Source: Chrysomallon squamiferum (Eukaryota; Mollusca; Gastropoda; Neomphalida; Peltospiridae). Taken from it: a stretch of 64,000 bases of DNA. The position numbers and the translations under genes were made by a program. This document shows positions 29,551 through 63,720 of this stretch, in pieces; position 1 is the stretch's first letter, and the number at the start of each line of letters is the position of its first letter. The stretch lies in contig CM022675.1 in the NCBI GenBank assembly GCA_012295275.1, forward strand, positions 13,931,517 to 13,995,516. The letters are read 5' to 3'. Under the pieces are notes generated by a model that saw only the letters and a list, made by a program, of their open reading frames with translations, was not told the origin of the DNA and searched no databases.

Positions 29551-30808
29551 CAACTGAAGAATACATTTTGAGAATCAAAACGAACCCCCCACCACTATTG
29601 CTCAGAAACATTTATATAAAGCACTATTAATTTGTAAGTTGAAAATCAACATACTTAGAAAACAGAATATTCTAACAAACATATATAGATACCACATAGA
29701 GATAAATCAGATACGACATAAAAAAATATATTCATCAGTATTTTAGTAAATTATTCATTCTTTCTTTCTCCCGTCGTTCATTATTTACTGTGTTTTTCTT
29801 CCTGTCACATTCTTTCTGCTTCTAAATGTAGTGTACAAAAACATACTGTAGAACCATAAATAGAAATTACACATAAAGCACATTTACAAAAACTGCAAAG
29901 TCAAGCATTATATTTTACAAAATAAATAATGTACTGCAAGACTGCAGAAATTATTACATATATATATATATATATTAAAAACAAAGTCATTAAAAAACAC
30001 AATGCAATACATTTATTTATAATGTTATTAGAAATATATACTGAACAAGGGAAGGGATCTACAATATTTGAAATGCTTACGTGGAGACAGTAAAACAGTA
30101 AGCAATAAAACAGTTAAATAAAACTGGTATGTAAACAGTTTACTGCAGTAAAATCATATTAGATGAAACACCTCAATCTGATATCTCACACACACACAAA
30201 CACATACACACACACACGCGATCACACACCCAAACAGCACATCAGAGCAGTGCACAGAAAAGATACACACCATAAATTAGAATGATTAACTCTACAGATC
30301 TATCTTTACTCTGATGTAACTTTTACATAAATGTAATATAATTATTAGAATAAATTAAATATAAAACGTTTATTTATCTATATGTTATTTATTAAATTAC
30401 TTTTGATCTTGATATGAATGCCAGTAAATAAATAAATAAGTATCACATATAATGAATGTAATCGTGCGTAACCGGGAAAAGGGACGTAAGTGTACAAAAT
30501 AATAATCTCGAGGAATCACGCGCGATTTTGAATCACGCGATTAAAATGGCGGCTTGTTGCTAGGCGATTGTCGCAGCGCATATTCAAAGGGAAAACACCG
30601 AGAAGGACTGGTTAGTTAATGGTTTCTGTTTTGGAGATAAAGGTATACTTAATTTGTTTTTTCATATTTAGTTGTATTTTTATAGTATGCCACTGTATTT
30701 ATAGGTCATGAGGATGAGGTTTGTGACTCTTAGACTGTGTGACACTGAGTCGACTGACACTGACAGTCAAATAATGGTGGTTTAAAGAAAAGTTTTTATT
30801 TTTACACA
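29551..30808 (+). repeat. 1.26-kb tandem duplication, unit 1 (upstream region of copy A)
   Basis: Aligns collinearly with 30809-32057. ACCACTATTGCTCAG begins at 29591 and 30848, an offset of 1257. Shared landmarks are GCACTATTAATTTGTAAG, a CA tract with CGCGATCACACACCCAAAC, the YY1-type promoter block and the block AGGTCATGAGGATGAGG. Unit 1 extends to the junction GTTTTTATTTTTACACAAAA. The two units differ by scattered substitutions and small indels. Confidence 0.92.
30475..30640 (+). promoter_or_regulatory. Copy A promoter 1 (YY1-type, TATA-less)
   Basis: AAAATGGCGGC at 30543-30553 is an exact long YY1 consensus. It is preceded by CTCGAG and CACGCG motifs and followed by GTTGCTAGGCGAT, which resembles an RFX X-box half. 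A candidate noncoding exon ends with GTTTTGGAG and a GT-containing donor-like GGTATAC near 30641. The order is repeated upstream of copies A (second unit), B and D, which supports a genuine promoter. Confidence 0.6.
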
Positions 30809-32057
30809 AAACTGAAAATACATTTTGAGAATCAAAACGAACGTCCCACCACTATTGCTCAGAAACATTTATATAAAGCACTATTAATTTGTAAGTTAAA
30901 AGTCAACATACTTAGAAAACAGAATATTCTAACAAACATATATATATATATATATTCATCAGTAATTTTAGTAAATTATTCACATTCTATCTTTCTCCCG
31001 TCCTTCGTTATTTACTGTGTTTTTCTTCTTGTCACATTCTTTCTACCTCAGAATGTAGTGTACAAAAACATACTGTAGAACCATAAATAGAAATTACACA
31101 AAAAGCACATTTAGAAAAACTGCAAAGTCAAGCATTATATTTTACAAAATAAATGATGTACTGCAAGACTGCAGAAAAATAAAAGTATATTTGAATACTT
31201 TTGGTAATTATTACATTTATATATATATTAAAAACAAAGTCATTAAAAAACACAATGTAATTCACTGTGCATTGACATTTATTTATAATGTTATTAGAAA
31301 TATATACTGAATAAGGGAAGGGATCTACAATATTTGAAATGCTTACGTGGAGACAGTAAAACAGTAAGCAATAAAAACAGTTAAATAAAACTGGTATGAA
31401 AACAGTTTACTGCAGTAAAATCATATTAGATGAAACACCTCAAATTGATATCTCATACACACACAAACACACACACACACACGCGATCACACACCCAAAC
31501 AGCACATCAGAGCAATGCACAGAAAAGATACACACCATAAATTAGAATGATTAACTCTACAGATCTATCTTTACTCTGATGTAACTTTTACATAAATGTA
31601 ATATAATTATTAGAATAAATTAAATTAAAACGTTTATTTAACTATATGTTATTTATTAAATTACTTTTCATCTTGATATGAATGCCAGTAAATAAATAAA
31701 TAAGTATCACATATAATGAATTTAATCGTGCGTAACCGGGTACAGTGACGTAAGTGTACAAAATAATAATCTCGAGGAATCACGCGATTAAAATGGCGGC
31801 TTGCTGTTAGGCGATTGTCGCAGCGCATATTCAAAGGAAAAAAAACCTAGAAAGAATTGGTTAGTTAATTGTTTCTGTTTTGGAGATAAAGGTATACTTA
31901 CTTTGTTTCTTCATATTTAGTTGTTTTTTATTGTATGCCACTGTATTTATAGGTCATGAGGATGAGGTTTGTCACTCTTAGACTGTGTGACACTGAGTCG
32001 ACTGAGACTGACAGTCAAATCTATGGTGGTTTAAAGAACAGTTTTTATTTTTACACA
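30809..32057 (+). repeat. 1.26-kb tandem duplication, unit 2
   Basis: Second collinear copy of the upstream and promoter segment, directly ahead of copy A's long intron. Diverged homologues precede copy B (41,700-43,340), and parts precede C (49,380-49,760) and D (60,240-60,560). The block therefore belongs to the repeated gene unit. Confidence 0.92.
31725..31890 (+). promoter_or_regulatory. Copy A promoter 2 (duplicated YY1-type)
   Basis: AAAATGGCGGC at 31790-31800 lies in the second 1.26-kb unit, with the same upstream AACCGGG, GACGTAAGTGTAC and CTCGAG elements. The following TTAGTTAATTGTTTCTGTTT and donor-like GGTATAC are preserved. The X-box-like motif is eroded here. Being nearer, it is the likelier promoter for copy A. 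Confidence 0.6.
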
Positions 32058-34375
32058 AACGTATTATATTCCATTAATGCATTTAACGTACAGAAATTAA
32101 ATATCTTCTTAATTATTACTTCAAATATTTACATATATCGTGTAATTAAGAGATAAATGTAAATAATCGAAACGATAGGCAGATCAGTCCTGCAGAGGTT
32201 ATCTCCCCATGGCATTGATTGGCGATTTTTCTAAGCATCCAAGCAGAATTTCTCAGAATCATTTATTGAGAAAAATTGTTTTTGAAGTCTCCCCATATGT
32301 TCAGTCCTGAAGTCCATAGCAACTAGTTATTATGCATTTTTAGGAGCCATTAACCCTAAGACTTTTGGTAGTTGCAGGAAGAATGAATTAGAATTTATCT
32401 GTGTTCACTACACATTTGTTAAATTTGTCAGAGTTTAAAGAGTGGCTGATCTGCCATTTTTACCATCAAATTAAATTTTGATTTATATTTTATTATCATT
32501 TTTTAGATTGAGTCTCATATGATATGTTTGAAATTCTTAATTTTTAAAGTATTTAGACATAATATTTATTATCGCATTTTAGGGTGTTTAAAATGACACA
32601 GGAAGCCATTTAAAACAAAATCAGATATAGGTGTAAAAATCTTTAAGTAGCACATCATATCTTTCTTTACAAATGCAACTTAATGTTTTATTCTTAAGTG
32701 TTTTAAGTAATTAGTTGTAAAATAAAAAAAAATAATTAACTGTGATGTATATATTTCTTAAAAGCTGTTGAAAGCATTTGATGTTTAACAACAATCCTCT
32801 GCAAAATACAAACTCAGCAAATCCAGAATGGTCTGGCAGGTACCCATTAGTTGTAATAAAATGTCTATATTCATGAAACAAAAGGCAATTAGAGATGCAG
32901 CTGTGATAAGTTGTATATGTGATGCAGAAATACAGCTTTAACAGCAAAACAGAAGTTACCCATCATCTGACCATTGTTGACATTTTCACTAACAAAAGGT
33001 TCAAGCAAGATTAAAAATAAATTTATGATACTAAAAAAATAATAAGGAAATGGTCATTAGTGGGTTTGTTTATTTGTCATTCTTGAAATATTACAACTAG
33101 TTGGATTCACAGAATATATTGTTTTGTTGTTTTAATTACTATGTGATCCTAACATTCTGCAAACAAAATACTAATCTATGTCTCAAGAGACAATAATCAG
33201 CAAAACCTGAAGCGTCAAGACTTGAAAGCTATCAGCGTGCTTATCTCAGCCTGGTCATAGCAACTAAACTGCATTGTAAATCATTAAAGTATCCTTCTTT
33301 TACTTACCTCATTTTAATAGAAAAAACAATAGATAAAGAAAGTTGACATCACAACTGTTCTTCTGCTCTTGTAGTGTGCGGCTATGTTTAGTGCAGTGAA
33401 AACTGGCAGATTTTTTAGTTTAATTAGTAAAGATTCATAAAGATATGGTTACAAAAATCCAAAAAAAAAGAAAATATGTTTTCTACTCTAGTTTAATGTG
33501 AATGATGAATATTTACTTGAGCCTGAGGGTTTTGTGCACCAGTCCTAAAAATAAGTAAAAATTGAACTAATATCTTGTTAGATGATTAAATGTTTGGGGG
33601 TGGCCATGTGAGAAGAGCCTACTTTTGGTCAAACTTAGATAGCTCGAGTGTTGGCTCCCAAGAACCTTGATCTGTGAAACTGAGAGTCTGGTCCTGGCTG
33701 AGTTACTGTAGAAGTTAGTAATAATTATAATAATAACCTTTGAATAATAAAATGTTGATATGTCAAAAAGCTTTATATACTCAGTCCTATGTAGTCCCAG
33801 AGTGCTATATGGTCCCAGATATAATAGAAATTAGCCTTTCGAAACTCCAAGTTCTGGAATGGTCTACCTATTGTAATACTGAAATATAATGTTTAACAAT
33901 AAACATCTGTTCAGAATATCATTATCCAAAAAGTAATGAAAATCTGTTTCCATGGTTTCTTGAAGAAATTGTCTTCCATTACAGTGTGTGTATTACCACA
34001 CAGATTTGTTAAATTTCATGAGAATGTTCATTTTCAACATGTGTAACTATTAACTGCTGTTTACATAGCACAAATAAAATGTTTTACACAATAAACTCAT
34101 GATGCTGGTTTCTCTTGGCTGATCCTGTTTCAACTTGCTATGGGTGCTTAATTGCACACCCTGTGTGTGAAGGAATGAAGAAAGATTATTATTATTATTA
34201 GGAAGAATGAATTATACTTGTGCTTTCCCTCCATAGTTGAGAGTGTACTTTGATGTTCTGTGTCATGTACATTTTTTCTAAACATACAAAGCTTATAAAT
34301 TATTAGTTGATCCCCAAAATTTAAAAAAAAGTCAAAAGAAATCTAGAAGTTCTGTTTTAAATTCAGTTTTCAACA

Positions 34376-34426
<51 letters not shown>

Positions 34427-34759: not shown

Positions 34760-34866
34760 TTCAGCTAATATGGATGATAATTCAGAAGTCAATCCTAATC
34801 CCAGTGCTCTTGCTTTGCATGGCAACAGTACAGATCCTGGACACCATTTACAGCAGCAAGTGTCAG
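34760..34866 (+). CDS. Copy A first coding exon
   Basis: Acceptor TTTTGCAG, then TTCAGCTAAT and ATG at 34770. Coding length is 97 nt (32 codons plus one base), ending at donor TCAG/GTAATTAATAAC, so it leaves phase 1. It encodes a short Ser/Asn/His-rich leader beginning MDDNSEVNPNPS. Homologous exons exist in copies B, C and D. Relative to B, A lacks 18 nt at its 3' end and uses the GGTA that flanked the lost segment as its donor, so frame and phase are kept. Function unknown; no signal peptide or domain is recognisable. Confidence 0.7.
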
Positions 34867-35826: not shown

Positions 35827-35862
<36 letters not shown>

Positions 35863-36060: not shown

Positions 36061-36093
36061 CAAAAAAACATGGAAGAGCATCCAATATTAAAG
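36061..36093 (+). CDS. Copy A 33-nt microexon
   Basis: Flanked by TATTATTTCAG and AAAG/GTGAAT. Length 33 nt. In phase 1, set by the first coding exon and the NTPase exon, it adds KKHGRASNIK and then completes a Glu codon with the next exon. Three homologous 33-nt exons exist in copy C, which supports it as real. A phase 1-1 exon can be included or skipped without changing the frame. Confidence 0.65.
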
Positions 36094-36325: not shown

Positions 36326-37347
36326 AGTCTGCCAAGTCAGTGATAGACTCAGTTGACACACGTCTCATTGTTGAAACAAGAGCAAAGAAAAGAGGTCTAA
36401 CACTTTTGAAGAAGGATGGTGTTGTGATTGTAATAGGAGGTCCAGGCTCAGGAAAGACAACTCTTGCTTGGAGCATGATGAAACAGATAGAAGAAGAAGA
36501 GAATAGAGAATATTATTTGCTGACTCATCACTCTGAATTCAGTGACATCGATCTGTCTCCAGGTAGAAAATGCATTTTCGTCATTGATGACATATTTGGT
36601 AAGACTAATCTCATTTCAGATTTTATGTCGTCATGGCAACCAAAATTTTCAAAAATGTGGAGTCTTGTTCAAGATGGTTCTGTTAAATGTATTATTACCT
36701 TACGAAATGAAATATTTGCAAAAAGCAAAACCAGTTTGAAGGAATATGATCTGTTTAAAGAGAATCATCTCCTTGATCTGCAGAGTGATGACTATTGTCT
36801 GAATAAAGATGAAAAGAAGGAAATTTTAAACACTTATCTCAAACAAGAAGATGTTACAATGGGTGAAAAGGACAAAGACATTGTAATTCAAGAACTATGT
36901 ACAGAGTTAGGATTCCCTCAGATGTGTGTTTTTTATGTTAAATCAAGTGATGCACAAAAAAGTGGAGTCGAGTTTTTTAGGAAACCTGTAGAATATCTCA
37001 CACAACAGCTGCAAAATATGAGAAGTGACAAATCCTTACAGATCAATTATCTGGTTCTGCTGCTGATTATGTTTAAAAAAGGGAGTCTCAGTATTGATTT
37101 GTTGAACCCATTTGAAAATGACAGTGACAGTGAAATAATGAAATTAGTAAAACAGCTAGAGCGTGTCTGTCCAAGTCTAAAAAACACTGGTCTTGAAGAC
37201 ATAAATAAAGCAGCTAACCTTATGTGTGGTACCTATTTGAAGCTTAATGACAGTAAGTACACATTTATTCATCAATCAGTGTTTGATGCTTTGTTTCTGA
37301 TGTTTCAGTCAGAGTTTCCAAAGAAAGCAAAAGAATTGCAATGTTGA
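36326..37347 (+). CDS. Copy A STAND-type P-loop NTPase exon
   Basis: The acceptor TTGTGATACAG ends at 36325, and the frame then opens in phase 1 for about 340 codons. Walker A is GGPGSGKTT (36436-36462). Walker B is CIFVIDDIFG (36571-36600), with adjacent Asp residues. ITLRNE (about 36695-36712) fits a sensor-1-like strand ending in Arg. A helical region and the winged-helix-like segment YTFIHQSVFDALFLMF follow. This matches the novel-STAND (nSTAND3-like) NTPases that invertebrates fuse to ankyrin repeats; it would act as an ATP-driven oligomerising switch in the cytoplasm. The TGA at 37345 results from small deletions relative to copy C, which continues past this point. The product would be an NTPase without its repeat sensor unless the break is spliced around. 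The family call is from motifs; an immune role is inference. Confidence 0.8.
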
Positions 37348-38290
37348 GACACCTGCAGTGTCTAACAAAAGTCACATTACAATGACTTTGAGAACTGACT
37401 GCTTTTATGTGCTTGCTCACAGATTTACTGACTTGCTGCAAGTGAATGTGTTGTAATATGGAATTGACAGATCAGAAAAACAACCTTTTGGATATTTCTT
37501 GTTTGTTTGGTGATGAAAATGTTGTGTCAACAACTGATACATCATGTATAGTTGCATTTTCAAAAACAGACAGTGTAACTATACTCAAAGAACTATTAAA
37601 GCCTCAAAAGAAGATAAAACTGAATAATTACTCGCAGTTGTTGTATCTATCTATTGATTCATGTAATATGAATATTGACTTTTTAGAGACTGACTTTATA
37701 AATAAGGAGAAAGACAACAGCAAAATGAATGAAAAAGCTGTGAAACTGTTATTGGTGAGGCTCCATAAACAAGTAAGATATGAGTCAGATTTCATACCTT
37801 TGATGACATCACTGATTCATAAAGTTTTTGATGAGTCATCTTTTTAAATAGCTGGTTACCATTGATATAATAAACAAATTTAAAGACTGCTTTTATTGCT
37901 GCAGGTCAGAGTAATTCAAGTCTTATTAAAGAAATAGTAAAACCGAAACTAGATTGTTTAATGATGAGAACAGATATAAAGTAGTTTTAGCAGCAGCAAT
38001 ATGGGGTTCTGTTGACACAGTGAATTTTCTCACTGACCAGAGATGTAATGATACAAATGATAACAACTGGAAGAAAAGTCAAAAATTGAAAGTAGCAGTG
38101 ATGGTTAACAGTGCAGATGTTGTTTAGTGTCTCCTTGATAAAGGAGATGATCCTCATGCTCATGTAGCTGTTAATAGGAAATTGAATGATTAGTTTAACA
38201 TTGTTGATAAAAACTGTGCTTCTAATGTCATTCAGTGGTTAACAGAGACCAGATTGCATTTTATAGGCTTCAGACCCACCTCTCCACGTT
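37348..38290 (+). pseudogene. Copy A linker region, degenerate
   Basis: Continues the NTPase-to-ankyrin linker seen in copy C, but out of frame. A deletion joins TTGCTG to GCAAGTGAATGTG, removing about 260 nt present in C (about 53,260-53,520). An open segment at about 37446-37847 (containing AVKLLLVRLHKQV) matches C's AVKLLLVRFHPHV-type segment. Stops and frameshifts continue to the first ankyrin repeat, which is cut off near 38290. Confidence 0.75.
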
Positions 38291-39015
<725 letters not shown>

Positions 39016-39883
39016 GATGTTGTTGTAAAATGTCAACAATGAAGGTAAAACTCCTTTTCTTACAGCTGTGAACTACAAACAGAACAAAAAAAATGGAGTG
39101 TTGGAATTCTGTTTTACATCTTTTTAAACTAGAAAAATGGAGCTTGTGTTAAAAAACATTAAAGTAAAATAAAATAGTGTCAACAGAACAAAATAGTTTT
39201 GTATTTACAGATCATGGAGCTGATCCTAGTTTAACAGACAAATATAAGAATTCTGTTTTACAACTGGCAGCTTGAACTTGGAAATACAGAAACTGTGACA
39301 GCACTGATTCAAAAAAGTGTTGATGTAAATATTAAAAACAGCAGAGGTGAAACTCCACTTCTTACAGCTATATATCATTATAGACATCCACATCATTGAT
39401 TCAATAATGATAGCAAGTGGGAAATAGTTTTGTATGTAATGGAACATGGAGCTGTAACCAATTTTGCAGACAGATGTAATAATTTTTTTTACACCTAGCA
39501 GCTACTGATGGAAATATAGAAATTGTGAGAGCACTGATTGAAAAAGGTGTTGATATAAATATTAAAAACAAGGAAGGTGAAACATCTATTCTTACAGCTG
39601 TGAAGTATGAACACAATAAACTGGTTTTGTATTTATTGGAACATGGAGCTGATATAACATATAGATATAAGAATTCTGTTTTACAAATAACATCTAAACA
39701 TGAAAATAAAGACATTGTGAAATCACTAATTGAAAAAGATTTTGATATAAATATTATAAACAGTGGAGGTGAGACTCCTCTTCTTACAGCTCTGAATTAT
39801 GATTGTTGTTAGTGGCATTCATACATGAATGATGAACACTCCAAAGCAGTTTTCTGTTTCTGAAACATGGGGCTGATCCTTAA
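39016..39883 (+). pseudogene. Copy A ankyrin-repeat segment, disrupted
   Basis: About eight ankyrin repeats in two alternating types: VLQ/VLHIA..NIEIVRALIEKGVDIN and ETPLLTAV..KLVLYLLEHGADP. The best open stretch is 39525-39812 (about 95 codons, three repeats). Frameshifts and stops separate the rest. The last repeat ends HGADP followed by TAA at 39881, as in copy B, so this looks like the ancestral stop. AATAAA at 39895-39900 is a candidate poly(A) signal. Confidence 0.8.
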
Positions 39884-41690
39884 ATATAAAATTTAATAAA
39901 ATACTGGTGTAAATTACTAATTTATTTTAAAATTAATATGAATATACCAAACATAGTATATCTTTCTCCTTTTTAATTCAAATATTATTATTATTATTAT
40001 TGCATATGTATCCAATTAATGTTGAAAGATTCTTTTTTTTTTTTTTTTTTGAACATTTACGTTTATTATTTTTGTTTTTCAGAATTGTTTTTATATGTTT
40101 TTTTTCTCTTTTGCTCACTTTTATTTAATTTCATTTAGTTTAATTTTATTTCATTTTTTATACCCTTTTTTCTAACATTAATTTACAATTAATGTAGATT
40201 AGTTGATTTAAATGATTATACGAGGGAAGTAAATGCAAATCATTTAATACAGTGGTGCATTGTACTTCAAACTATAAAGTGAAGAAACATTCAGTCTGGA
40301 GTTTGAATGATGTGTGTATGTTAAACTGCATGCACTGTAAATAACTATGAAGTTTATTTCTTTTAACTTTGTCATGAACTGAAAACGAAACTCAGATTTT
40401 TAGTTGTTTTATTATAACATTCATAATTGTTTCATTTAAGGAATAACCACCAAATTTTGGATTGACAGAAACATTATTATTATTCATTAATTAATTATTT
40501 ATTTATGTTTTATTGTAAGATTTAAGTTTAGTGTTTTTGATTATTTGTACTAATAAGAATATGAATATACGTGTGTGTTATAATTTTTCTATAAAGAGTT
40601 ATGTAAAGAATAAATGTACTAACACTACTGAAAATAAAATAAATTTTACTTACTATTTACACTTATATGAAAGTGGAATTAAATAAGAAATGTACAAATT
40701 AAGTAGATTTCATTATTACTACTATCATTTTTTTTATACATTCTTAATGTGTGTGTGTTAGCTAAAGTGTAAATATGGTAAAATGATTGAAAATAAACTA
40801 TTTTAATCTGCAACAACATGTATTTTGATTTTTTCTAAAATTTCACAATTCAACCACTGCCCAATAATTTACATAAAAGAGACCATTTTGGGAGTTCTTG
40901 CAAAATATACCTTTCTCCTAGAATGAAGTGGAGAATTACTGCACAAGTTTTTTCTTGAAGTTTATCATTACATATTTAGGTTTGGCACATACATGTTATT
41001 GTTCTCAAATACCTACTGTTTGTTCATTGTGATTGAATATATTATTCCAGGTGAATATATTATTGAAAGGTGACTATAATATCAGATTTGATTGATTTTT
41101 GAATGCCAATGTATGAATCCAGGTGGAGTTTAAACTGCTGCTTTCATTTGGCCACTGCCCCATAACTGACATGAAACAAAGCAAATTGGGAGTTCTCATA
41201 AAATATGTCATTCTGCTGGAATAAAATGGAGATTTACTGCACAAGTTTACTCTTAAACTTTATTATTACATATTTAGGCTTGGCTCAAATATCTTCCAAT
41301 TTTAAATTATGCATTTGTCCATTGTCATAAAATGTATTATTCCAGATGAAAGATGACTGCCATATGAGATTTAACTGATTTTTCTATGCCATATCCAGGT
41401 GGACTGTTAAAACTGCTTTTTTGGGCTATCATTCTGAAGAAGGAAAGTTTGTAACTTGTGAATCTGACTAGGTGATTTCAATGGAAAAAAGCATATATAA
41501 ACCAGTTGTTAGTGAAATACAAAACAGATATTAAAAGAGAAATAACTGAAATGTTCTGAAAAAAATTTAAAAAAAATGAAAAAAACAAGATAAAATTGTT
41601 TACTTCTTTGTAATTATTGTTTCAGTTGTTTCGGTAGATTTTTAACTAGACTAAGTTGTGAAAGAATTGAACATTTACAATTAGAATAAT
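39884..41690. other. 3' flank of copy A, with a local about 300-bp tandem duplication
   Basis: Matches the 3' flank of copy B (TTCATAATTGTTTCATTTAA near 40420 and 48160). Segments at about 40854-41125 and 41150-41415 align with each other (shared TTACTGCACAAGTTT, TACATATTTAGG and ATCCAGGTGGA). No gene was seen. Confidence 0.6.
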
Positions 41691-41699: not shown

Positions 41700-42121
41700 G
41701 AGTAAATTATTCACATTCATTCCTTCTCCCATCCTTTGTCATTTAATGTGTTTTTCTCTACCTCTCACAATGTTTCTACTTCAGAATGTTGTGCACAAAA
41801 TCATAATGTATAGCCATAAATAGAACTTACACGTAGAGTACACATAGAAAAACTGCAAAGTGAAGGGTTATATTTTTACAAAATAAATAATGTACTGCAA
41901 GACACCAGAAACATAAAGTATACTAGCATACTGTTGCCACTGATTGGTCTAATGTGTGTGTATATGTGTATATACATGCACACAAACACACACATACACA
42001 TATATATATACTGACATACACGTACACATACACGTACACATACACACATGTATGTAATGTATAAGTACATTAAAAAAGTCATTGAGAAAAAATCACAGTA
42101 TAAATGAATACACATTAACAC

Positions 42122-42152
<31 letters not shown>

Positions 42153-42292
42153 GATATATTGAAGAGGGCATCTACAATATCTATATTATTTATATGAAGA
42201 TGGTAAAACAGTAAGCAATAAAATACAGTTAGAAAATACTGGTATATAAAAAGTACTGCAGTCAAATCTATAGGAAAGACTTCAATGTGATA

Positions 42293-42343
<51 letters not shown>

Positions 42344-42694
42344 TACCCAGACAAACAGAAATACCCACACACACAGAACAAGAGAGCAATGCACAGCAGA
42401 GATGAGCGCCAGAAATTAGAATCATTAACTCCACTGATCTGTCTTTACTCTCATATCATATTTAAAATTACAACTTTAAAATAATGGGTCCAAAAGTAAA
42501 CATGTCTACACAAATAAAAATAAATTAAAAACAATTAAAACACTTCAACAATTATCTGTACATCAAGATGACAAACGTAATTTATAGTTATTTATTTACT
42601 TCCATTAGAAAACGTTTTATGTTCAGTTAATTTTCTCGCCTAATTATTATAGTTTTCGGAGAGTTTGATGTAACATAACTATTAATGTATGCTC

Positions 42695-42780
<86 letters not shown>

Positions 42781-42995
42781 CTTCGAATTGTAAAGAGATC
42801 GACTTATAGATAATTTTAATATAATTAATAGAATAAATAAAATTAACATTTTTATTTACCCATATTATATTTATTAAATTTTTTTTTCTTGATACGAATG
42901 CCTATAAATAAATAAATAATCATTGCATATAATCAATTTAATCGGGTGTAACCGGGTACAATCACGGAAGTGTACGAAATAATAACCTCGAGGAT
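41700..42995 (+). other. Copy B upstream region
   Basis: Diverged homologue of the 1.26-kb upstream units of copy A (shared CCATAAATAGAA, AAAAACTGCAAAG and GGTAAAACAGTAAGCAATAA). Contains TA (42123-42147) and CA (42294-42337) runs. AAAT-(AAT)n at 42699-42778 expanded within the unit. Confidence 0.75.
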
Positions 42996-43135
42996 TCTCG
43001 CGTGATTTGGAAATGCGATTAAAATGGCGTGTTGTTGTAAGATGGTGGTCGTAACGCAAAGTAAAATGAAAAGACTAGTAGGAATTAGTTAGTTAATTTG
43101 TTTCTGTTTTGGAGGTAAAGGTATATGTAAGTTTT
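42945..43135 (+). promoter_or_regulatory. Copy B promoter (YY1-type)
   Basis: AAAATGGCGTG at 43021-43031 retains the YY1 core ATGGCG with a changed tail. Upstream ACGGAAGTG (about 42964-42972) is a good ETS-type site that the A units have as ACGTAAGTG. CTCGAG follows. The candidate noncoding exon ends TTTTGGAG/GTAAAG, a good donor. Confidence 0.55.
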
Positions 43136-44411
43136 TCTTCATATTCAGTTTGATTTCTTAGAGTATGTCACTGTATATGTTATATTAATTATAGGTCATG
43201 AGGGTGTGGTTTGTCACTCGGACACTGTGACCCAGAGTCGGCTGACGGTTGAGTCTGTGGTTTCGAGAAGAATTTTTACCTTTACACATAAATATTATAT
43301 ACCATTAATATATCTAAAATATAAAAGTTAAACATATATTAAATTATTACTTCTAATTGTTTGCATATATTGTGTAACTAACAGATAAATATAGAAAATC
43401 GAAACGATAGGCAGATCAGTCAATTCACTTCGTTCACAAAATCAGGAACGTAACAGTATCGTGAGTAAGCACTTTTCATGCAGAGATTATCTCTGTTATA
43501 TTTATTAATTACGTGAAATTATCAGAATTTAAAGTGATTGAACTGACTTTATTTTTGTCCTCATTGAATTAAATTTTAATTTATTTTTTAATTTTGGTGG
43601 TTTTCTTAAGTTAACGATTCACGTGACATTTTAGTCGTAATATTTATTTTTAAGTTGATTAAAACGGAACAAAAACTGAAACAGATGTAAAAATCTTTAA
43701 ACAGCACACCATAACTTTTTTTTATAAAATGTACCTTAATTTAAGTATTTTAAATAATTACATGTAACTTGTTAAGATTTTAAAATACTGTCTTGATATT
43801 CATATTGTCTATTTTTTTTCTTCTTTTGGTTTTTAAAACTTTTAGCTGTGCGATAATATACAATTCAGAAAAGAAAAGTGTATGTGTGTGTGTGTGTATT
43901 TAACAGAACCTAATATCACAATTTAAAAAACTAGAATTTTTTTTTTCTTTTAAACATATTAAAAAGTGGTGTCTTTTTGTTGCAGTACTAGAAGTTATTG
44001 AATAAGTATTTCTTTTCTCAGTTTTCGATTTTGTTGAAAAATTAAAGTTGGTTTAATCAACTGGTTTTTAAATGTACCTGTAAAAATGTGTATTTAATAT
44101 AACCATGCAGATACATCAATCAGGTAAAAATATAGTTCTGTTGTGAAATACACTGTGTGTTTTTGTAAATACTTGTTAGACATGCTGTGAGTATTTTTGT
44201 TTTTGTTCCTTGTTTTTATGTTTTGTAAACTGTACCATTGCCAGTAAAATTAAAGAATAGATAAAGAAATGAAAAGAACTAGATGATTAATTAAAACTTA
44301 TAAGGGTTTTTTTTTTTTTTTTTTTGTTAATAAATATATCAATAGAAGCGAATGTAATATTAACAATCTGTAAGGCTAAGATTTGTATTAAAACTGATAT
44401 TAACATTTCAG
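43136..44411 (+). other. 5' intron of copy B
   Basis: Contains the conserved block GTCATGAGGGTGTGG (about 43196) after an acceptor-like ATTAATTATAG, possibly a second noncoding exon. A T-run lies near 44306. Ends at acceptor TAACATTTCAG. Confidence 0.5.
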
Positions 44412-44546
44412 CCAATATGGATGATGAAAAGGAGAATTTAGAAGTCCATTCTAAAACCACAGCTGTTTCTGACAACACCACAGTTCCATTCACTTGTAAC
44501 TCAGATACTGTACAGCCTCAAGTGTCAGGTATGACATCTTGTGAAG
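44412..44546 (+). CDS. Copy B first coding exon
   Basis: ATG at 44417; 130 coding nt (43 codons plus one base) to donor GAAG/GTAATTAATAAC. Encodes MDDEKENLEVHSKTTAVSDN and ends MTSCEG in phase 1. An internal GGTATGA could also act as a donor and corresponds to the donor used by copy A. Function unknown; Ser/Thr/Asp-rich leader. Confidence 0.68.
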
Positions 44547-49408: not shown

Positions 49409-50273
49409 AGGCATATACAGCAAAACAGTAAGCAATAAAATACAGTTAAATAACTGGTATGTTAAGAATTTATTGCAGTCAAATCATATTATAGGAAACT
49501 CAGTAATCTGACATACGCATGTTATCTCACGCATACACAGAGACAGAAACGCACACAAACGTGCACAGACATAGAGAGATACACACATATTCAGATACAG
49601 AAATACACACCAGCACACCCAGACATAGACATACTCAGACACACAGAAACACAGAGATACTCACGCACAGACAGAACAAGAGATGAGCACCAGATATTAG
49701 AATCATTAACTTTACTATGATATGATAACTAAAACAACAACTTTAAAATACTGAGTCTAAAAGTAAAAATGCCTACAGAAATTACTAAAAAAAAAGAAGA
49801 AGTAAAACTCTTCAATAGCTATTTATACAAAAACTATATTATTCCAAAAACATTTGGTGAAAATAAAAATTGTGAACAAGGGACTATCAGAGATAACTCT
49901 TTCTGTAGAGGGACGTCTGAGTGAGGAGAACAGGTAACTCCAGATTCCTGAAAACAGAAGAGTTCCAGTTCCATTGCTTTTCAGAGCATTAGTACAATAT
50001 ATATTAAACAGAAAACCTTTAAAATAAACGTGCGAGTGTCTGTGTGCGCGCATGCGCATATATGTGTGTGTGTGTGTGTTAACCGTCTAAACTTCCACTA
50101 AAATTTGTTGATCTGCCTATTGATATACATACCCAAGTGTTTATATACTTAAGAAAACACACACACACACACACATCATTATATAATAATAATAATAATA
50201 ATGATAATATGTATTATTATTATTATTTTCATTATTATTACTGTTACTGTTATTGTCATTGTTATTGTTTTTG

Positions 50274-50317
<44 letters not shown>

Positions 50318-50460: not shown

Positions 50461-50477
50461 TCTCTTATATATTCGGG

Positions 50478-50669: not shown

Positions 50670-50824
50670 TTCAGCCAATATGGGTGAGAAAAATGAAGAT
50701 TCAGAAGTCAACTCTAAAACAATAGTTGTTTGTCTGTCTGACAACACCACAGTTACATCTACTTGTAACTCAGATAATGGACACCATTTACAGCTGCAAG
50801 TGTCATGTATCACATCTTTTGAAG
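50670..50824 (+). CDS. Copy C first coding exon
   Basis: TTCAGCCAAT then ATG at 50680; 145 coding nt (48 codons plus one base) to GAAG/GTAATTAATAAC. Encodes MGEKNEDSEVNSKTIVVCLS and ends ITSFEG in phase 1. This is the longest of the four homologous leaders. A split relationship with A is visible in the shared GHHLQ and QVS residues. Confidence 0.68.
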
Positions 50825-51732: not shown

Positions 51733-51765
51733 CAAAGACTGATAGAAGAATTTCAAGTTTTAAAG
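51733..51765 (+). CDS. Copy C microexon 1 (33 nt)
   Basis: Between TATTATTTCAG and AAAG/GTACTT. In phase 1 encodes KTDRRISSFK. Homologous to the copy A microexon and to the two that follow. Confidence 0.6.
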
Positions 51766-51957
51766 GTACTTGTTTTTTTCCTTGTATAGTTTAGAACAAA
51801 TGTGCATTAATAATGAGATAATGATCTAGTTGCTTTTAATCTTACAAGCTCTGTTATGACTAAACTGAAAAGTAATTGAACAAATCACTGTTATTAATAA
51901 TTCTTGTTTGCTTCACGGTAATAGAAACTTCCTGGCTTTATTTCTACATTATCTCAG

Positions 51958-51990
51958 AAAAGGCTGATGGAAGAATATCCAAAATTAAAG
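51958..51990 (+). CDS. Copy C microexon 2 (33 nt)
   Basis: Between ACATTATCTCAG and AAAG/GTAAAT. In phase 1 encodes KADGRISKIK. Surrounding intron sequence is also repeated (for example ATTCTTGTTTGCTTC and ATTCCTGTTTACTTA), so exon and intron were duplicated together. Confidence 0.6.
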
Positions 51991-52153
51991 GTAAATCTTT
52001 TTTTCTCATCTAGTTTTGAAAAATATGCATTACTCTTAGAAGCTCGCAGTGTTATGATAAACTGCAGATTAATTGCAAACATCACTCTGTTAATAATTCC
52101 TGTTTACTTATCAGTAATAGAAACTCACTGGTTTTATTTTTACATTTTTCCAG

Positions 52154-52186
52154 AAAAGACTGATGGAACAGCATCCAATATTAAAA
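52154..52186 (+). CDS. Copy C microexon 3 (33 nt)
   Basis: Between CATTTTTCCAG and AAAA/GTGCTT. In phase 1 encodes KTDGTASNIK, the closest of the three to copy A. Its donor is weaker because the last exon base is A rather than G. Confidence 0.55.
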
Positions 52187-52360
52187 GTGCTTGTATAGTC
52201 GCTTTAAATCTTATTGATATTTTCATTAAATTCTGATGAACAAATATTATGGCAAGAGACTATAGCATTATTTTAAGAACTTGAAATCCTGATTTATATA
52301 ACAAAACATTTTCAAAACAGTTTATAATAGATCTTAATTTTTTAACTTGTTTTGATACAG

Positions 52361-53219
52361 TTTCTACCAGGTCAAGGATAAACTCTGTTGACTGGAGGCT
52401 CTGTGTTGAAATAAGAGCTGAGAAAAGAGGTGTTATACTTCTGAAAAAGAATGATGTTGTGATTATAGTAGAATGTGCAGGTAAAGGGAAGACAATTCTA
52501 CCTTTGTGCATGATGAAACCATTAGAAGAAGAAGAGAACAGAGATTCTTACTTGCTGAAATTTGATTTCTTTACAGAGAATCATCTCCTTGACTTGCAGA
52601 ATGATGACTGTTGTCTGAATCACGATTAAAAGTATAGAATTCTAAACAAATATCTCAAACAAAAAAATGTCACAATGGACTGTCATTTGTAGATCATGTA
52701 CAGAGTTAGGATTCCCTCAGGTATGTGTCTATTATGTTAATTCAAGTGATGCACAAAAAAGAGGAGTTGAGTTTTTTCAGAAACCTGTAGAATATCTCAG
52801 ACAACAGCTAGAAACTATGAAAAGTGATGAATCCTTACAGATCAATTGTTCTATTGGTCATAATATTTCAGCAAGGCAGGTTCAGTATTGATTTGTTGAA
52901 CCCATTTGAAAATGATAATGACAGTAACATAATGAATTTAAAAAAACTGCTAGAGCGTGTCTGTCAAAGTCTAAAAGACACCGATCTTGCAGATATAAAC
53001 AGAGCAGCTGATGTAATGTGTGGTACCAATTTGAAGTGTAATGACAATAATTACACATTTATACATCAGTCAGTGTTTGACTGTTCGTTTCTGATGTTTT
53101 CATCAAAGTTTCCAAAGAAAGCATCAAAGTTACTAGAAGTGTGTCCTGTCTCCATGTTGTTAGAATATGTTGTGACGCCTGGAGTGTCTAACAAAAGTCA
53201 CAATGACTGTGAAACCTGA
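52361..53219 (+). pseudogene. Copy C NTPase exon, degenerate
   Basis: Acceptor TTTTGATACAG as in copy A. Walker A is degraded to ECAGKGKTI (52471-52497), losing the first Gly. After YLL about 216 nt present in copy A (36523-36738) are missing in frame, removing Walker B and the sensor region. A TAA at 52627 and a further small deletion near 52680 break the frame. Downstream similarity resumes (CTELGFPQVCVYYVNSSDAQ, then NPFENDNDSNIMN and YTFIHQSVFD) in two frames. It cannot encode a working NTPase. Confidence 0.85.
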
Positions 53220-54130
53220 CTGCTTTGATTTTCTTGCTCGCAGATTTACTGACTTGCTGGCATCAAGCAATGCCAGAAAAATTATTTCACATCCATCACT
53301 GAAAAATGAAGAGTTTGTAAAGTATATCATAGAGGAAAAAAACTTTTGTTATGGTAAATTGTCTGAAATATTGAATCAGAAACTAAAGTACAGGTACATG
53401 ACTGTAGAACAGAATTTGGTAAAAACGTCCGTATGGAAACTGAAGAAATTGTACATTTCTGTGACAGTTATTAAGTGTATTCAATAGTGAAAGTAATATG
53501 TATTAATTCATCATTTGTTGCAAGTGAATGTGTTGTGAAATGACTAAGAGCTTTGTCGAGGTTTTCTTGCATCAAATCTGTGTAAAATACAATACCTATA
53601 TCAGAAAAATCAACTTTTGGATATTTCTTGTTTATTTGGTGATAAAAAATATTGTGAAAATATTCCTACAATCAGATGTTATTCCAATTTTTGATACATA
53701 CAGTTTAGTTGCATGTTCAAAAACAGATATCCTTACAATACCCCAAAACTGTTACCGTATAAAAATGTGAATTTGAGTATGTATTCCTGGTTGTTACCAC
53801 TTTCAATTTATTCATCTAACATGAACATTGCCTGTTTCTTGGCTGACATTATAAATACTCAGAAAGACAAAAGTGAAATAAAGAAAAAAGTTGTGAAACT
53901 GTTATTGGTTAGGTTCCATCCACATGTACATCACACAATTGTTCACAGATACTTCGCAAAATCAGTAATTGATAAAGAAAATGATACGAGCCATATTCTT
54001 AAGAAACTGGTTGCCATTGAAATAATAAACAAAATTGAAAACACTGCAGTCATTGCTGCTGGTCAGAGGAATTCAGGTGTTATTAAAGAAATAGTAAAAC
54101 TGAAACCTGACTGTTTAAACGATGTGTGAA
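53203..54130 (+). pseudogene. Copy C linker region, frameshifted
   Basis: Helical linker between NTPase and ankyrin repeats. Segments include DCFDFLARRFTDLLASS (from about 53218) and VVKLLLVRFHPHV with VIAAGQRNSGVIKEIVKLK (to 54129). They lie in different frames separated by short indels. Longer and better preserved than in copy A, so it is the best guide to the ancestral linker. Confidence 0.7.
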
Positions 54131-56769
54131 TGACAGTGAATTTTCTCATTGAACAGAGACGAAATGATAAAGATGAGAACAACTGGAAGACAAGTCAACT
54201 ACTGAAAAGCTATGATGTTTAACAGTGCAGATGTTGTTCAGTGTCTCCTTGATAATGAAGCTCTTAATAGGACATTAAGTGGTTTGAATGGAAAACTAGA
54301 TTAAAATTGTTGGACTGCGACTCGCCTGTCCACATTTCAGCTCTGCGCGGTGATTTAGATTTGTTGAAATCACTAGTAAAAAGAAATGCTGATATCAACG
54401 CAGTGAACACTGAGAGGAAAACTGCACTTCATAAAGCTGTAAGTCATTGTGGATTTTACACAAAAGAATTACTTTTGTTTTTACTAGAAAATGGAGCTGA
54501 TGTTAACATCACAGATGATGATAGAATTCAGCTTTACACTTAGCAGCTGAAGTTAGATATATGGATATTATAACAACATTGATTGAAAAGGGTGTTGAGG
54601 TAAACAGTACTAACTATGAAGGTAAAATTTCTCTTTTTACTGCTCTGAATAATACTGAAAAACAACCATTTATGAGTGATGAACAACGGAGAGCACCGAT
54701 TGAGAACAGTGGTGGTAAAACTGCTTTCTTTCCAGTTGCAAGTCATTTGCATTTGCAGAAGAGGTCAAACAGCTTCTGTTACAGCTGTGAACTCTAAACA
54801 GAAGAAAGTAGTTTTGTATCTGCTGGAACATGGAGTTGATCCTAACATAACAGACAGAGATAACAATTCTGTTTTACAGATGGCAGCAAAAACATGGAAA
54901 TATAGACACTGTTTCAGCATTGATGTTAAATATTACAAACAATGAACGTAAAACTCCTCTACTTACAGCTGTGAACTACAATCAGAACAAAGTAGTTTTC
55001 AGTTTACTGGAACATTGAGCAGATCCTAATTTAATAGAAAGTAAAAACAATTCTACTTTACACCTAGCATCAAAACTGCGAAGTATAGAAATTGTGACAG
55101 TACTGATTGAAAAAGGTGGTAAAGTAAATAGTTAAACAAGGAAGGCGACATTCCTCTTCATACAGCTCTAAACTGTTGTCAGTAGCAGTCACATAGTAAT
55201 GATAAACTTTGTGAAGTAGTAATATATTTAGTGGAATATGAAGATGATCTTAATTTAAGAGACAGTGGTAACAGTTCTATTTTGCACATAGCAGCGAAAC
55301 ATGGAACTATAAAAATTGTCACAGCATTGACTAATAAAGTTATAGATGTAAATATTATAAATAGTACAGGTGAAACTCCTCTTCATACAGCTGTGAAGTA
55401 CAAACAGGACAAAGTATTTTTGCATTTGCTGGGACACGGAGCTGATCCTATTTTAACAGACAGTGATAACAATTCTGCTTTAGTCATAGCAGCTGATTAC
55501 GGAAATATAGACATTGTGAGAGCACTGATTGAGAAAGGTGTTGATATAAATCTTAAAACCAGTGATGATGAAACTCCTCTGCTTAGAACTTTAAGGGATT
55601 ATGAATATTGTCAAAAGGAGTCTCTTAAAGATGAACGTTGCAAAATGGTTTTGTGTTTACTGGAACATGGAATTGATCCTCATGTGACAGACAAACATAA
55701 GAATTGTGCTTTACACAGAGCAGTGTTACAAGGAAATATAGAAACTGTGAGAGCACTCATTGGTAAAGGTGTTGATATAAATCTTAAAAACAGTGACGGT
55801 GATACTGCTTTGCTTAGAACTTTAAGGGATTATGAATAATGTGATAATGAGTTTCTTAAAGATGAACGTTGCAAAGTGGTTTTGTATTTACTGCAACATG
55901 GAGCTGATCCTAATTTAACAGACAGCGATAACAATTCTATTTGACACATAGGAGCTAAACAGGGAATTATAGAAATTGTGAGAGCACTGACTGAAATAGG
56001 TATTGATCCAAATCTTAAAAACAGTAGTGGTGAAAATGCTGTTTCTACAGCTTTAATTCATTATAAATATATATATTTTTTTACTAATCAACACTTGAAA
56101 ATAGTTTTGTATTTACTGGAAAATGGAACTGATCCTAATTTAACAGTCTTGTATAGCAATTCTCCTTTACATCTAGCAGCTGAAAATACAGGGAAATATA
56201 GAAACGGTGAGAGCACTGACTGAAAAAGGTGTTGATATAAATCTTAAAAACAGTAGTGGTGAAACTGCTCTCCTTACAATTTTAAATGATTATGGATATT
56301 TCCATTCTGAATCTGTAAAATAGGACGTCGGAAAGTAGTTTTGTATTTATTGCAACATGGAGCTGATCCTCTTTTAACAGATAATGATAACAATTCTTCT
56401 TCACGTATAGCAGCTAAAAAGGAACAAATAGAAATTGTGAGAGCACTGATTGAAAAAGGAGCTGACGTAAACCTTAAAAACAATGAAGGTTAAACTCCTC
56501 TGCTTACAGCTGTAAAATATGACAAGAACACTGCAAGCTTCTATTTGCTTAAAACAGACAGACAGAGCAATTCTGTTTTATACATAGCAGCTAAACGTAG
56601 AGACATAGATACTGTGACAGCACTTGTTGAGGAAGGTGCTGATGTAAATGTTGTCAATGCTTTGGGAAAACTCTTCTCAGGATAGCTAAAGATGAATTTT
56701 GTAGAAAAAATCGTTTCCTTTCTACTGAATCATGGTGCAACATATAAATTAACTGGTATATTTTATTAA
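54131..56769 (+). pseudogene. Copy C ankyrin-repeat array, interrupted
   Basis: About two dozen ankyrin repeats in 66-residue pairs. The first repeat (about 54307) reads SPVHISALRGDLDLLKSLV. The best frame runs from about 55201 to 56223 and is broken by only two point nonsense codons: TAA at 55837-55839, where the paralogous segment has TAT, and TGA at 55942-55944 in a VLHIA-type position. Some repeats carry an extra 10-14 residues (RDYEYCQKESLKDERC). Elsewhere frameshifts are frequent. The C-terminal end after the last HGA is YKLTGIFY then TAA at about 56767, unlike the HGADP-stop of A and B. Confidence 0.82.
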
Positions 56770-60239: not shown

Positions 60240-60385
60240 ACATAAAGAAAGTAATCGGGTATAATCGGGTACAAAGTTCACGCGATTAAAATGGCGGCTT
60301 GTTGCTAAACGGTTGTCGCAAATTAAAACGAAAAGATTAGTAGGAGTTGATTAGTTAATTGTTTCTATTTGGGAGGTAAGTGTAT
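60240..60385 (+). promoter_or_regulatory. Copy D promoter (YY1-type)
   Basis: AAAATGGCGGC at 60288-60298, preceded by CACGCG and followed by GTTGCTAAACGGT. The candidate noncoding exon ends GGGAG/GTAAGT near 60376, a near-ideal donor and the clearest of the four. The upstream CTCGAG-containing segment seen in A and B has been lost. Confidence 0.6.
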
Positions 60386-62731
60386 ACTTAATTTATCTCT
60401 TCATATTCAGTTTGATTTTGTATAATATATCACTGTATTTACATGTTATATTAATTATAGATTACGAGGGTGTGGTTTGTCACTCTCAAACACTGTGATA
60501 CCGAGTCGAATGACAGTCGAATCTGTGGCTTTAACAAATGTTTTTAGCGTTACACAAAAATATTACATACCATTAAAATATTTAAAATATAAAAGTTAAA
60601 TGTCAAGTTAATTATTACTTCTAATGGTTTACACATATCGTGTAATTAAAAGATAAATAAAAAAGAAATAATAATAAAATAAAAAAACAAAAACAAAAAC
60701 AAACAAAACAAACAAAGATAGGCATATCAGTCAATTTACTTTGTTTAAAAAATCAGAAACGTCACATTAATGCACTTTTCATACAGAGGTTATCCCTGTT
60801 ATAATTGTTAATTACCGTGAAGACTGACGGAGACATGGCATTTTTGGTTTTATCAAATCCAAAATTTCTCAGAATCCTTAATTGAGAATAATGGCTTTCG
60901 AAGTCTGCCATTTTTGTCATCATTAAATTAAATTTTTAATTATTTTGATTCATTTTGATTTTGTTTTTTCTTTTATTTATTTATTATTATTATTATTACA
61001 TTCTAACAAAACATTATAAATTTGAAATTCTGCATTTCTAACATATTTAGTCACAATATTTATTATAGCATTTTAAGGTGTTTAAAATGACACAGGAAGA
61101 TATTTAAAACAGAAACTGATGTAGATGTAAAAATCTTTAAACAGCATATCATAATTTTCTTTACACATGTAAGTTCATTGTTGAATCTTAAATAATTAGT
61201 GGTAACATTTGATGTTTAACCGTAATCCTCTACAGAATACAATCTCGGCTAGTCTTGGAGCCCATTGTAGTTTTGATGGTGTGCACATACTTATTAGGGA
61301 CAGAAAAATGTCTATATTTATGTTATAGATCTAGGTGTAATACGTGGTATATCTGAAGAAGAAACATAGCTTTAACTGCGAAACAAAAGTTATCTATCAT
61401 CTGACCATTGTTGACATTTTCACTAGTGGGGCTAATAAAATCTGCAAGCAAAAATAAACCAATTTTAAAAATCAATTTATAACGAAACATACAGTGATTA
61501 ATTTTTCCTTCGTATTTGTGCAATACTGTAGCTACTTGGACTCACAGATTAGTTTGTTCGGTTGTTTTGTTTAGTTTGTGATCTCAAAATTCTGCAAACA
61601 AAATACTAATCTATGTCTCAGAGCAGAAGACACAGTAATCGGAAAAAACCTGAAGTGTGCAGACTTGAATCCTATCAGGTCAGCCAGTGTGCTGTTATCA
61701 GCCTGGACGTAGCTACTAAACTGCATTGTTTACATGTAAGTCATTGAAGTATTTTACGTTTCTTTCACTTTAAAGTGTGTACTGACAATTTCAAAGTTAT
61801 AATGCTATTGGTGGAAATAAAGAATTAGTATGGTCTGTACACACACAGTTCTCTAATTTATACTGATAATAAATTAATAATTCAAAACGTTTTATGTCCT
61901 GTTTGTTTGATACATGAAAACTGTAGCTCATTTTAATAGAAATAACATACCAAATCAGGAACTTTGACGTCACAACTCTTGTTCTGGTGTATGGCTTATA
62001 GGCTCTAGCTAATGTTAGAACAGTGAAAACTGGCAGTTTAGCTTAATTAGTAAAGATTCATAAAGCTATGGTTAAAGAAAAGTCAGCCCCGCAAGGAAAA
62101 AAAAGAAAACAAAAACACAAATCAATCGGTAAACATTACCATTTAACTACAAAAATTCTTTGAAGTCTTCCTGCAGTTACACATTATACAATAATCACTG
62201 GCCCATTGTTCTGCGTTTATCAACGGAAATAATCGCTTAAGGATTCCAGCAGCTCACGTTTCCAAAGGCTAATTTTTATTAAATCAGTAGGCTTCGCCCG
62301 TGAAGGAAGCAGGAGAAAACAAAGGAATTAAAAAGTAAGTTTCCAGTCTCTTAGAAAGCTCAATTATTTGTATTTTGATACATGTGGGTGATACATGATA
62401 CGGTTTTCACTTGCCTGTGGCTATTTTTACTTCCCAGGGTGATTGGCTATACATCAAGTGCACACACTCTGTGATTATGTGAGTGAATTTCTGTGTGCGT
62501 TTTTCTGTGTCTGTGTGCAAATGAAAGAAGAAGGATTATTGTTATTATTTGGAAGAAATCATTTTGCTTTCTTTTCCACAGTCGAGAGTGTACATTGATG
62601 TTTTGTGTCATGTTCTTTGTTTTCTAAACAAACAAAACATAACTTTGCCCTAAAAGTAATAAAAAATCGATTTCGGTCGATTTTCAATATTTGCTGATTT
62701 CCTTGTGGGATAATCTAGAATTCAGAAACAA

Positions 62732-62767
<36 letters not shown>

Positions 62768-62910
62768 AACAGAACCTAATATCACAATTTAAAAACTAGA
62801 ACAGACATTGTTTATTGTCATTATAATGTTTATAATAATATGTATTGAACTGAATGTAATATTAAGACTCTATAAGGCTAAGATTTATATTAAGATTTGA
62901 TATTTTACAG
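60386..62910 (+). other. 5' intron of copy D
   Basis: Matches copy A's leader in patches. Contains an ectopic copy (about 61761-61926) of the intron that follows the first coding exon. TG run at 62738-62764. Ends at acceptor TATTTTACAG (62910). Confidence 0.55.
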
Positions 62911-63038
62911 TTCCTTCAATATGGGTGATGAAAAAGAGGATTCAGGAGTTTATTCTAAAACCACAGCTGTCTCTACAGGTAACTCAGATGCTGTAAACCA
63001 GTCGCAGCCACAAATGTCTAGTATCATTTCTTGTGAAG
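62911..63038 (+). CDS. Copy D first coding exon
   Basis: ATG at 62921; 118 coding nt (39 codons plus one base) to GAAG/GTAATTAATAAC. Encodes MGDEKEDSGVYSKTTAVS and ends IISCEG in phase 1. Compared with B and C it lacks a short NTTVP-type stretch in frame. Confidence 0.66.
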
Positions 63039-63342
63039 GTAATTAATAACAAGGTCTTTTTCTACAACGTAGTTTATTATTTTGATGGGCAGCTCTAAAT
63101 TTTTCATTATGTTGTTTAATGTGAATTGGTTCTACTCGGACAAAGGACAAAGTTATTATTTATTTTTGTTGCTTTTTCTTTCACTTTAAAGTGTGTACTG
63201 ACAATTTCAAAGCTGTAATGCTATTGGTGGAAATAAATAATTATTATGGTCTGTACACACACAGTTCTCTAATTTATGCTGATAATAAATTAACAATTCA
63301 AAACGTTTTATATTCTGTTTGTTTTATACATGAAAACTGTAA
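63039..63342 (+). other. Copy D truncated intron
   Basis: Homologous to the start of the copy A and B introns, then stops abruptly at ankyrin sequence. Microexons, NTPase exon and linker are absent. Confidence 0.6.
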
Positions 63343-63720
63343 AACACACTAAGTAGTTTTGTATTTATTGGAACATCGAGCTGATGTTAACTTAACAGAC
63401 AGGGATAACAATTCTGTTTTACATCTTGCAGCTAAGTATGGAAAAAACAAATTGTGACAGCACTGACTGAAAAAGGTGTTGCTGTAAATATTAGAAACAC
63501 TGAGGGTAAAACTCCTCTTTTTACAGCTGTGAATTCTCAACAGAACAAAGTAGTTTTGTATTTGCTGGAATATGGAGCTGATCCAAATTTAACAGATAGT
63601 GATAACAATTCTGTTTTACACATAGCAGCTAAACATGGGAATATAGAAATTGTGACAGCATTGATTAAAAAAGTGTTGATGTAAATGTTATAAACAGTAG
63701 AGGTGAAACTGCTCTCTGTT
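63343..63720 (+). pseudogene. Copy D ankyrin remnant
   Basis: Nearly four ankyrin repeats. The best open part is 63454-63684, with VVLYLLEYGADPNLTDSD and VLHIAAKHGNIEIVTALI. One-base deletions at about 63442 and 63672 shift the frame. Similarity ends near 63715, before a full repeat is completed. No splice acceptor is evident at its start, so it is unlikely to be translated with the leader. Confidence 0.75.

Follow-up and report, generated by a model that had tools for sequence, protein, structure and literature searches.

Is a row of related genes that share promoter, exons and repeats a young family still being born and dying, or the remains of an old one? This question is raised by a 64,000-nucleotide (nt) stretch of the gastropod Chrysomallon squamiferum (GenBank assembly GCA_012295275.1, contig CM022675.1, positions 13,931,517 to 13,995,516 of the forward strand; hereafter, the window), which carries head-to-tail units built from a STAND-type nucleoside triphosphatase (NTPase) exon and ankyrin repeats. 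A first-pass annotation described four units, two of them with the NTPase exon and one of these two intact, and explained them by rapid duplication with independent decay. The locus is very probably an old and mostly dead array of at least five units, derived from a large animal family of nSTAND3-ankyrin proteins, in which unit A is perhaps a surviving STAND-only gene.

The array and its NTPase

The STAND assignment, originally based on motifs, was borne out by a hidden Markov model search with the translation of 36326-37347. The NTPase exon of unit A matches nSTAND3 (PF20720) with an E-value of 6.6e-26 and 91.3 bits, far over the cut-off of 27.2, along model positions 2-154 of 155, and it remains under the cut-offs of NACHT (21.6 vs 26.7 bits) and NB-ARC (16.6 vs 23.5 bits). 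All 16 tested sequences (unit A and 15 paralogs) match nSTAND3, and the Walker A (GGPGSGKTT) and Walker B (VIDDIFG) motifs of unit A are near-invariant across the 16-member alignment. PDC-S73, a PADLOC candidate defence protein, also matches the 16 of 16 members scanned at E <= 1 (best 5e-12). No protein homologs of the NTPase exon at E <= 0.001 were found among 2,277 candidates from a set of 5.8 billion proteins. Among solved structures, unit A alone produced weak P-loop matches only (best E 0.025), and the family profile produced short P-loop matches, the top one of which (RecA) is a sum of weak repeats.

Unit boundaries are based on blastn self-comparison of window positions 28000-64000. 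The order and strand of the four units proved correct (A, ~29552-39900; B, ~41700-47320; C, ~49417-56750; D, ~60278-63740; all on the plus strand), with long common blocks at ~64-88% nucleotide identity. Their number had been set too low: a fifth unit, E, starts at the right edge of the window. It is the one further unit in the 20 kb examined downstream (L029, L030), where it matches B 42622-47217 at 89.9% identity and then the 3' flank of B.

The common organization ascribed to the units holds in part. Coding exon 1 is open in all four window units and ends in an identical donor, GGTAATTAATAAC. A CG-rich promoter block is found in units A (two copies), B, and D; for unit C the self-comparison gave no match to the promoter core, just to the more upstream stretches 49417-49570 and 49578-49829. 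Unit D has neither linker nor NTPase, its intron 1 running directly into ankyrin sequence in the self-comparison. The NTPase exon is indeed kept by units A and C only. In unit A it is free of lesions, and to that extent one copy is intact; yet the frame ends at TGA 37345-37347, where paralog C11:6059994 continues for ~2,060 codons further, and the linker and ankyrin repeats beyond are broken (Table 1).

Members elsewhere in the genome

A search of the same genome with the unit A NTPase yielded 121 matches. Because 119 of 134 candidates were scored, the genome-wide counts are lower bounds. At least 70 matches extend over 300 or more of the 340 residues. Besides unit A itself, they comprise 56 at 58-73% identity, seven at 41-46%, all on contig C4, and six at 26-29%. 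The 57 close members among the listed matches are distributed over seven contigs (C14, 26; C10, 13; C11, 12; C3, 3; C13, C12, and C9, one each), and the match is free of stops in 51 of the 56 close paralogs.

Longer stretches were examined at ten close and two remote loci. In intact-looking members, a short first exon and a 33-nt microexon precede a single giant exon, which encodes the NTPase, the linker, and roughly 10-60 ankyrin repeats. Giant open exons span 2,420 codons at C11:6059994, 3,756 at C14:18994574, and 1,423 at C9:20329282; at C10:2738795 and C14:1284988, masked sequence makes up part of the long frames and inflates their lengths, and C11:2866375 is represented by two overlapping frames. 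A Pfam scan revealed nSTAND3 followed by ankyrins in all four paralog open reading frames (ORFs) scanned, and the STAND-ankyrin layout first proposed for the window is thereby seen in unbroken form outside it, the repeats being broken in all four window units. Seven ORFs, some of them truncated where the locus ends, have 11-64 ankyrin anchors each. The modelled N-terminus comprises 32-48 amino acids (aa) plus the 11-aa microexon, with further 5' exons possible. The microexon, missing from the exon list of the first-pass annotation, is accompanied by splice sites in eight of the ten paralogs scanned and in unit A; its region is present in three copies in unit C, one in unit A, and two in paralog C11:12681365. 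Upstream exons, introns, and the promoter block are common at the DNA level to several dispersed paralogs, and the promoter/5' block of unit A matches three of them on C11 and C10 at 70-81%.

In a test with a 50-aa window, at least 100 residues lie in internal repeats at least 85% identical in seven of the eight close paralogs that are long enough (the exception is C14:607034) and in neither of the two remote members; C10:2738795 and C11:2866375, with open frames below 900 residues, were left out. At C14:18994574, near-identical internal ankyrin repeats take up 1,914 residues, about half of the exon. Such repeats are consistent with a fast-changing sensor. The repeat positions of highest entropy map to the ankyrin finger and inner-helix region, which we take to be the binding surface.

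Decay of the units

Frameshifts and stops total 12 in the unit A tail, 20 in B, 25 in C (in addition to a 73-aa deletion), and 2 in D; for the NTPase and linker, paralog C11:6059994 served as the reference. Aligned alone, the unit A linker has six such lesions, vs eight when aligned jointly with the NTPase. Controls contain no lesions in the ankyrin stretches of three paralogs (2,041 codons) and none in four of five linkers. Thus, under the present exon model, the frameshifts, stops, and deletions leave none of the four window units able to encode a full-length family protein. The independent decay of the units suggested earlier is borne out by these lesions. The NTPase of unit C has an altered Walker A and a deleted Walker B region, and so cannot be accepted on its Walker motifs.

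Units B and E have the NTPase-deletion junction in common, one linker stop of B (45646) lying right at it. Hence, the deletion is older than the B/E duplication, and a unit already devoid of NTPase was copied. The ankyrins of both units hold a 229-nt tandem duplication, a non-triplet length, with copies 98% identical in B, so that tandem repeats can evidently expand even where the frame is broken. B and E diverge unevenly, with 3.5% substitutions over the linker and ankyrins (45359-47217) and 6.5-10% in flanking pieces, which suggests local conversion.

Unit A: a STAND-only gene or a pseudogene

The exons of unit A join in frame through GT-AG splice sites into a predicted product of 383 aa that ends at the edge of the NTPase module. 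A suspected exon at 35472-35548 was rejected because it disrupts the frame and because the corresponding stretch of C11:2866375 contains a stop. Judging by substitution patterns, unit A may be a living STAND-only gene, a bare switch kept by selection, and perhaps a regulator or decoy that co-assembles with full-length members. As several tests were tried, we advance this reading tentatively, and give about an even chance to a rival one, in which all units including A are plain pseudogenes and the clean NTPase of A reflects recent death plus chance.

The distribution of lesions speaks for selection. The density of lesions in the A tail is about equal to that in C, yet none of the 12 falls in the NTPase (P 0.002), although this value is post hoc, because the first-pass annotation had already picked the NTPase exon as open. 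A clean NTPase beside a damaged linker is also found in five of 19 paralogs sampled, as a pseudogene would have it, though these 19 were the best-scoring NTPases and are hence biased towards clean exons. Branch omega is 0.52 (0.35-0.78) for A, 0.62 (0.38-1.06) for C, and 0.34-0.88 for other paralogs; the range of A overlaps that of the clearly dead C.

Since omega fails to separate A from C, we used the positions invariant in 18 other paralogs (C10:2738795, whose locus runs into a masked stretch, was excluded). The NTPase of A is changed at 5 of 121 invariant sites, vs novel residues at 29 of 211 variable positions (P 0.005), and its linker at 11 of 78 vs 24 of 194 (P 0.69). In C, the corresponding fractions are 12/94 and 24/158 for the NTPase (P 0.71), and 7/88 and 32/278 for the linker (P 0.43). 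At invariant sites, the NTPase of A therefore differs from its own linker (P 0.016; 0.009-0.046 with positions near lesions removed) and from the NTPase of C (P 0.023), while the two parts of C show no such contrast (P 0.34). An earlier version with 21 paralogs gave 4/104 for A and 11/84 for C. The contrast within A is not expected if the whole unit died recently and at once. In favour of the pseudogene, the test is weak on single genes, reaching P < 0.05 in 1 of 18 paralogs for the NTPase and in 5 of 18 for the linker.

It is unlikely that gene conversion from an intact paralog refreshed the NTPase exon of A after the tail had died. Such an event would likewise leave a clean NTPase beside a decayed tail and could produce the invariant-site contrast within A, and the uneven B/E divergence suggests local homogenization; however, the matches listed include no close donor (best full-length match, 73% aa identity; best long partial match, 80% over 241 residues, C11:6078106), and the terminal branch of A is the fourth-longest of 23.

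Age of the array

The NTPase exons of A and C are 81.2% identical at the nucleotide level, which is no closer than either is to paralogs on other contigs: A shares 77.5-83.8% and C 79.0-84.6% with 21 paralogs. The NTPase tree does not join A and C. In the tree of exon 1 and intron 1, for which C is too short, strong grouping among array units is limited to B and E (100). By these comparisons the array appears old, without being demonstrated as a single clade. Rapid duplication is thus not supported as a description of the array as a whole, given the A-C distance and the fact that B to E, the single recent duplication of unit size observed, copied an NTPase-less unit.

We propose the following history. 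The split between units A and C would be about as old as those among the dispersed paralogs. B, and hence its copy E, as well as D would have lost the NTPase by deletion, C would have decayed throughout, and A would have lost its sensor by a frameshift just past the NTPase module. What later duplications copied, in the A promoter block and from B to E, would have been noncoding or dead already.

A young tandem family in active birth and death, with unit A as its one working gene, would account for the head-to-tail blocks in common and for the recent duplications, B to E (3.5-10% substitutions) and A0 to A (4.4%) in the main aligned pieces. It is improbable, since A is no nearer to C than either is to paralogs on other contigs, the unit copied into E was already dead, and the tail of A has accumulated 12 lesions. 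Still less plausible is a transposable element spreading the gene as its cargo: close paralogs do lie on seven contigs, the dispersal that such an element would leave, but most of them are on three (C14, C10, and C11), and promoter, introns, and microexon kept in several dispersed paralogs speak against retrocopies and fit segmental duplication.

Several observations weigh against the reading as an old and mostly dead array. The nodes that place A and C in the tree have low support values (55, 66), which leaves room for an old common origin of the array; intron 1 of A and D is locally 83-88% similar, which suggests at least one local duplication. References taken as living are damaged in places: linker control C14:1284988 has three lesions, the 19 paralogs aligned over NTPase and linker include one with an NTPase stop besides the five with linker lesions, and the 1,765-codon frame at C11:12681365 runs into a stop within the ankyrins, though not in the control stretch. 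No N-terminal effector domain is recognized in the exon model of the family, in which 5' exons may be missed. Finally, the single-sequence structure model of the unit A NTPase was poor (mean predicted local distance difference test score 43) and was unused for fold search.

Features of the array and neighbouring sequence

Table 1. Parts of the array units, in window positions
Feature	Position	Strand	Basis or state
A0, extra upstream copy of unit A promoter/5' block	29552..30810	+	88.6% identity to 30810-32059; 4.4% substitutions
Unit A promoter/5' block, CG-richer core near 31780-31830	30810..32189	+	matches B 42802-43421, D 60278-60658
Unit A coding exon 1, 97 nt, phase 1	34770..34866	+	ATG start, then open; donor GTAATT; paralogs have a homologous exon
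Unit A 33-nt microexon (KKHGRASNIK), phase 1 in and out	36061..36093	+	in-frame joining; paralog splice sites
Unit A nSTAND3 NTPase exon, complete to end of conserved module, then stop	36326..37347	+	PF20720 E 6.6e-26; 0 lesions in 335 codons
Unit A decayed linker	37348..38208	+	8 frameshifts/stops and 97-aa deletion vs paralog C11:6059994
Unit A decayed ankyrin repeats	39181..39895	+	4 frameshifts in 207 codons
Unit B promoter/5' block	41701..43517	+	blastn to A and D
Unit B coding exon 1	44417..44546	+	open, same donor as other units
Unit B remnant linker, NTPase exon deleted between ~45648 and 45656	45640..45938	+	2 frameshifts, 3 stops in 93 codons
Unit B decayed ankyrin repeats	45981..47308	+	13 frameshifts, 2 stops in 397 codons
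Unit C upstream remnants of 5' block	49417..49829	+	blastn to A and B, 71-75%
Unit C coding exon 1	50680..50824	+	open, same donor as other units
Unit C three microexon-like copies (51734, ~51959, ~52154)	51734..52187	+	direct-repeat family; read KTDRRISSFK, KADGRISKIK, KTDGTASNIK
Unit C decayed NTPase exon	52361..53201	+	2 frameshifts, 1 stop, 73-aa deletion
Unit C decayed linker	53202..54330	+	7 frameshifts, 3 stops in 393 codons
Unit C decayed ankyrin repeats	54307..56754	+	9 frameshifts, 3 stops in 745 codons
Unit D promoter/5' block	60278..60821	+	72-74% to A and B
Unit D coding exon 1	62921..63038	+	open, same donor as other units
Unit D decayed ankyrin repeats directly after intron 1	63332..63740	+	2 frameshifts in 130 codons
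Unit E start, copy of B	63953..64000, continuing to L029:6728 = C11:14002244	+	blastn of B, 89.9% over 4.7 kb

Degenerate GGGTTA-type telomere-like repeats occupy 29000-29150, just 5' of the array. Further upstream, 24670-26115 of the plus strand is an intronless ORF of 481 aa for a rhodopsin-family G-protein-coupled receptor (Pfam 7tm_1, 2.3e-44), with 46% GC vs roughly 30% for the window. The open frame 11066-12130 on the minus strand is a degenerate tandem repeat (CFLPRVVYYTF-like units) that is open in several frames.

Proposed function and comparison with known systems

Members of the family are probably fast-evolving intracellular sensors. By analogy with STAND proteins, a ligand sensed by the ankyrins would free the NTPase to oligomerize and signal, and we infer an immune role for the family. 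No description of an animal nSTAND3-ankyrin family was found in the titles and abstracts searched, a coverage that most subscription journals fall outside. The presence of dead units and intact-looking members in one genome allows decay to be compared domain by domain.

A parallel for unit A is provided by plants, where NRG1C is a truncated NLR regulator, a fragment kept after domain loss, as proposed here for A. The two differ in that NRG1C belongs to a plant family, retains different domains, and has been tested functionally. Should unit A prove to be a retained STAND-only protein, it would illustrate, in an animal, how a receptor can become a possible regulator by losing its sensor.

The closest parallel for the NTPase lies in bacterial defence. 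nSTAND3 is the predicted NTPase of the Avs5 anti-phage proteins, in which it is reportedly accompanied, as here, by C-terminal repeats (PMC12931631). In Avs5, as described there (PMC12931631), an N-terminal Sir2-like effector is combined with tetratricopeptide (TPR), Sel1-like, or pentatricopeptide repeats, whereas here no effector is recognized and the repeats are ankyrins. In the scan of four giant-exon ORFs, which left out upstream DNA, Sir2 gave no hit at E <= 0.01.

For the repeats, the parallel is fungal. As described by Dyrka et al., 2014 (PMC4986451), fungal NLRs carry repeats of high internal conservation, and those that follow a STAND NTPase with near-identical ankyrins resemble the family described here. 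The fraction of such repeats given there (PMC4986451) among metazoan ankyrin (ANK), TPR, and WD repeats is very low, at 0.8%, a figure that counts repeats of all metazoan proteins and rests on a criterion not identical with our 50-aa window. The fungal NLRs of that study are defined by NACHT/NB-ARC-type domains, often with a recognized effector, in contrast to nSTAND3 and a short N-terminus here.

Among animals, the lineage-specific TRADD-N expansions of marine invertebrates likewise are expanded families with STAND NTPases or ankyrins among the linked domains (PMC8195603). Those expansions center on TRADD-N and Death-like adaptors (PMC8195603), neither of which is recognized in the four paralog ORFs scanned here. 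The family described here joins, in an animal, near-identical ankyrin repeats, described mainly for fungal NLRs (PMC4986451), to an NTPase family to which Avs5 proteins belong as well (PMC12931631).

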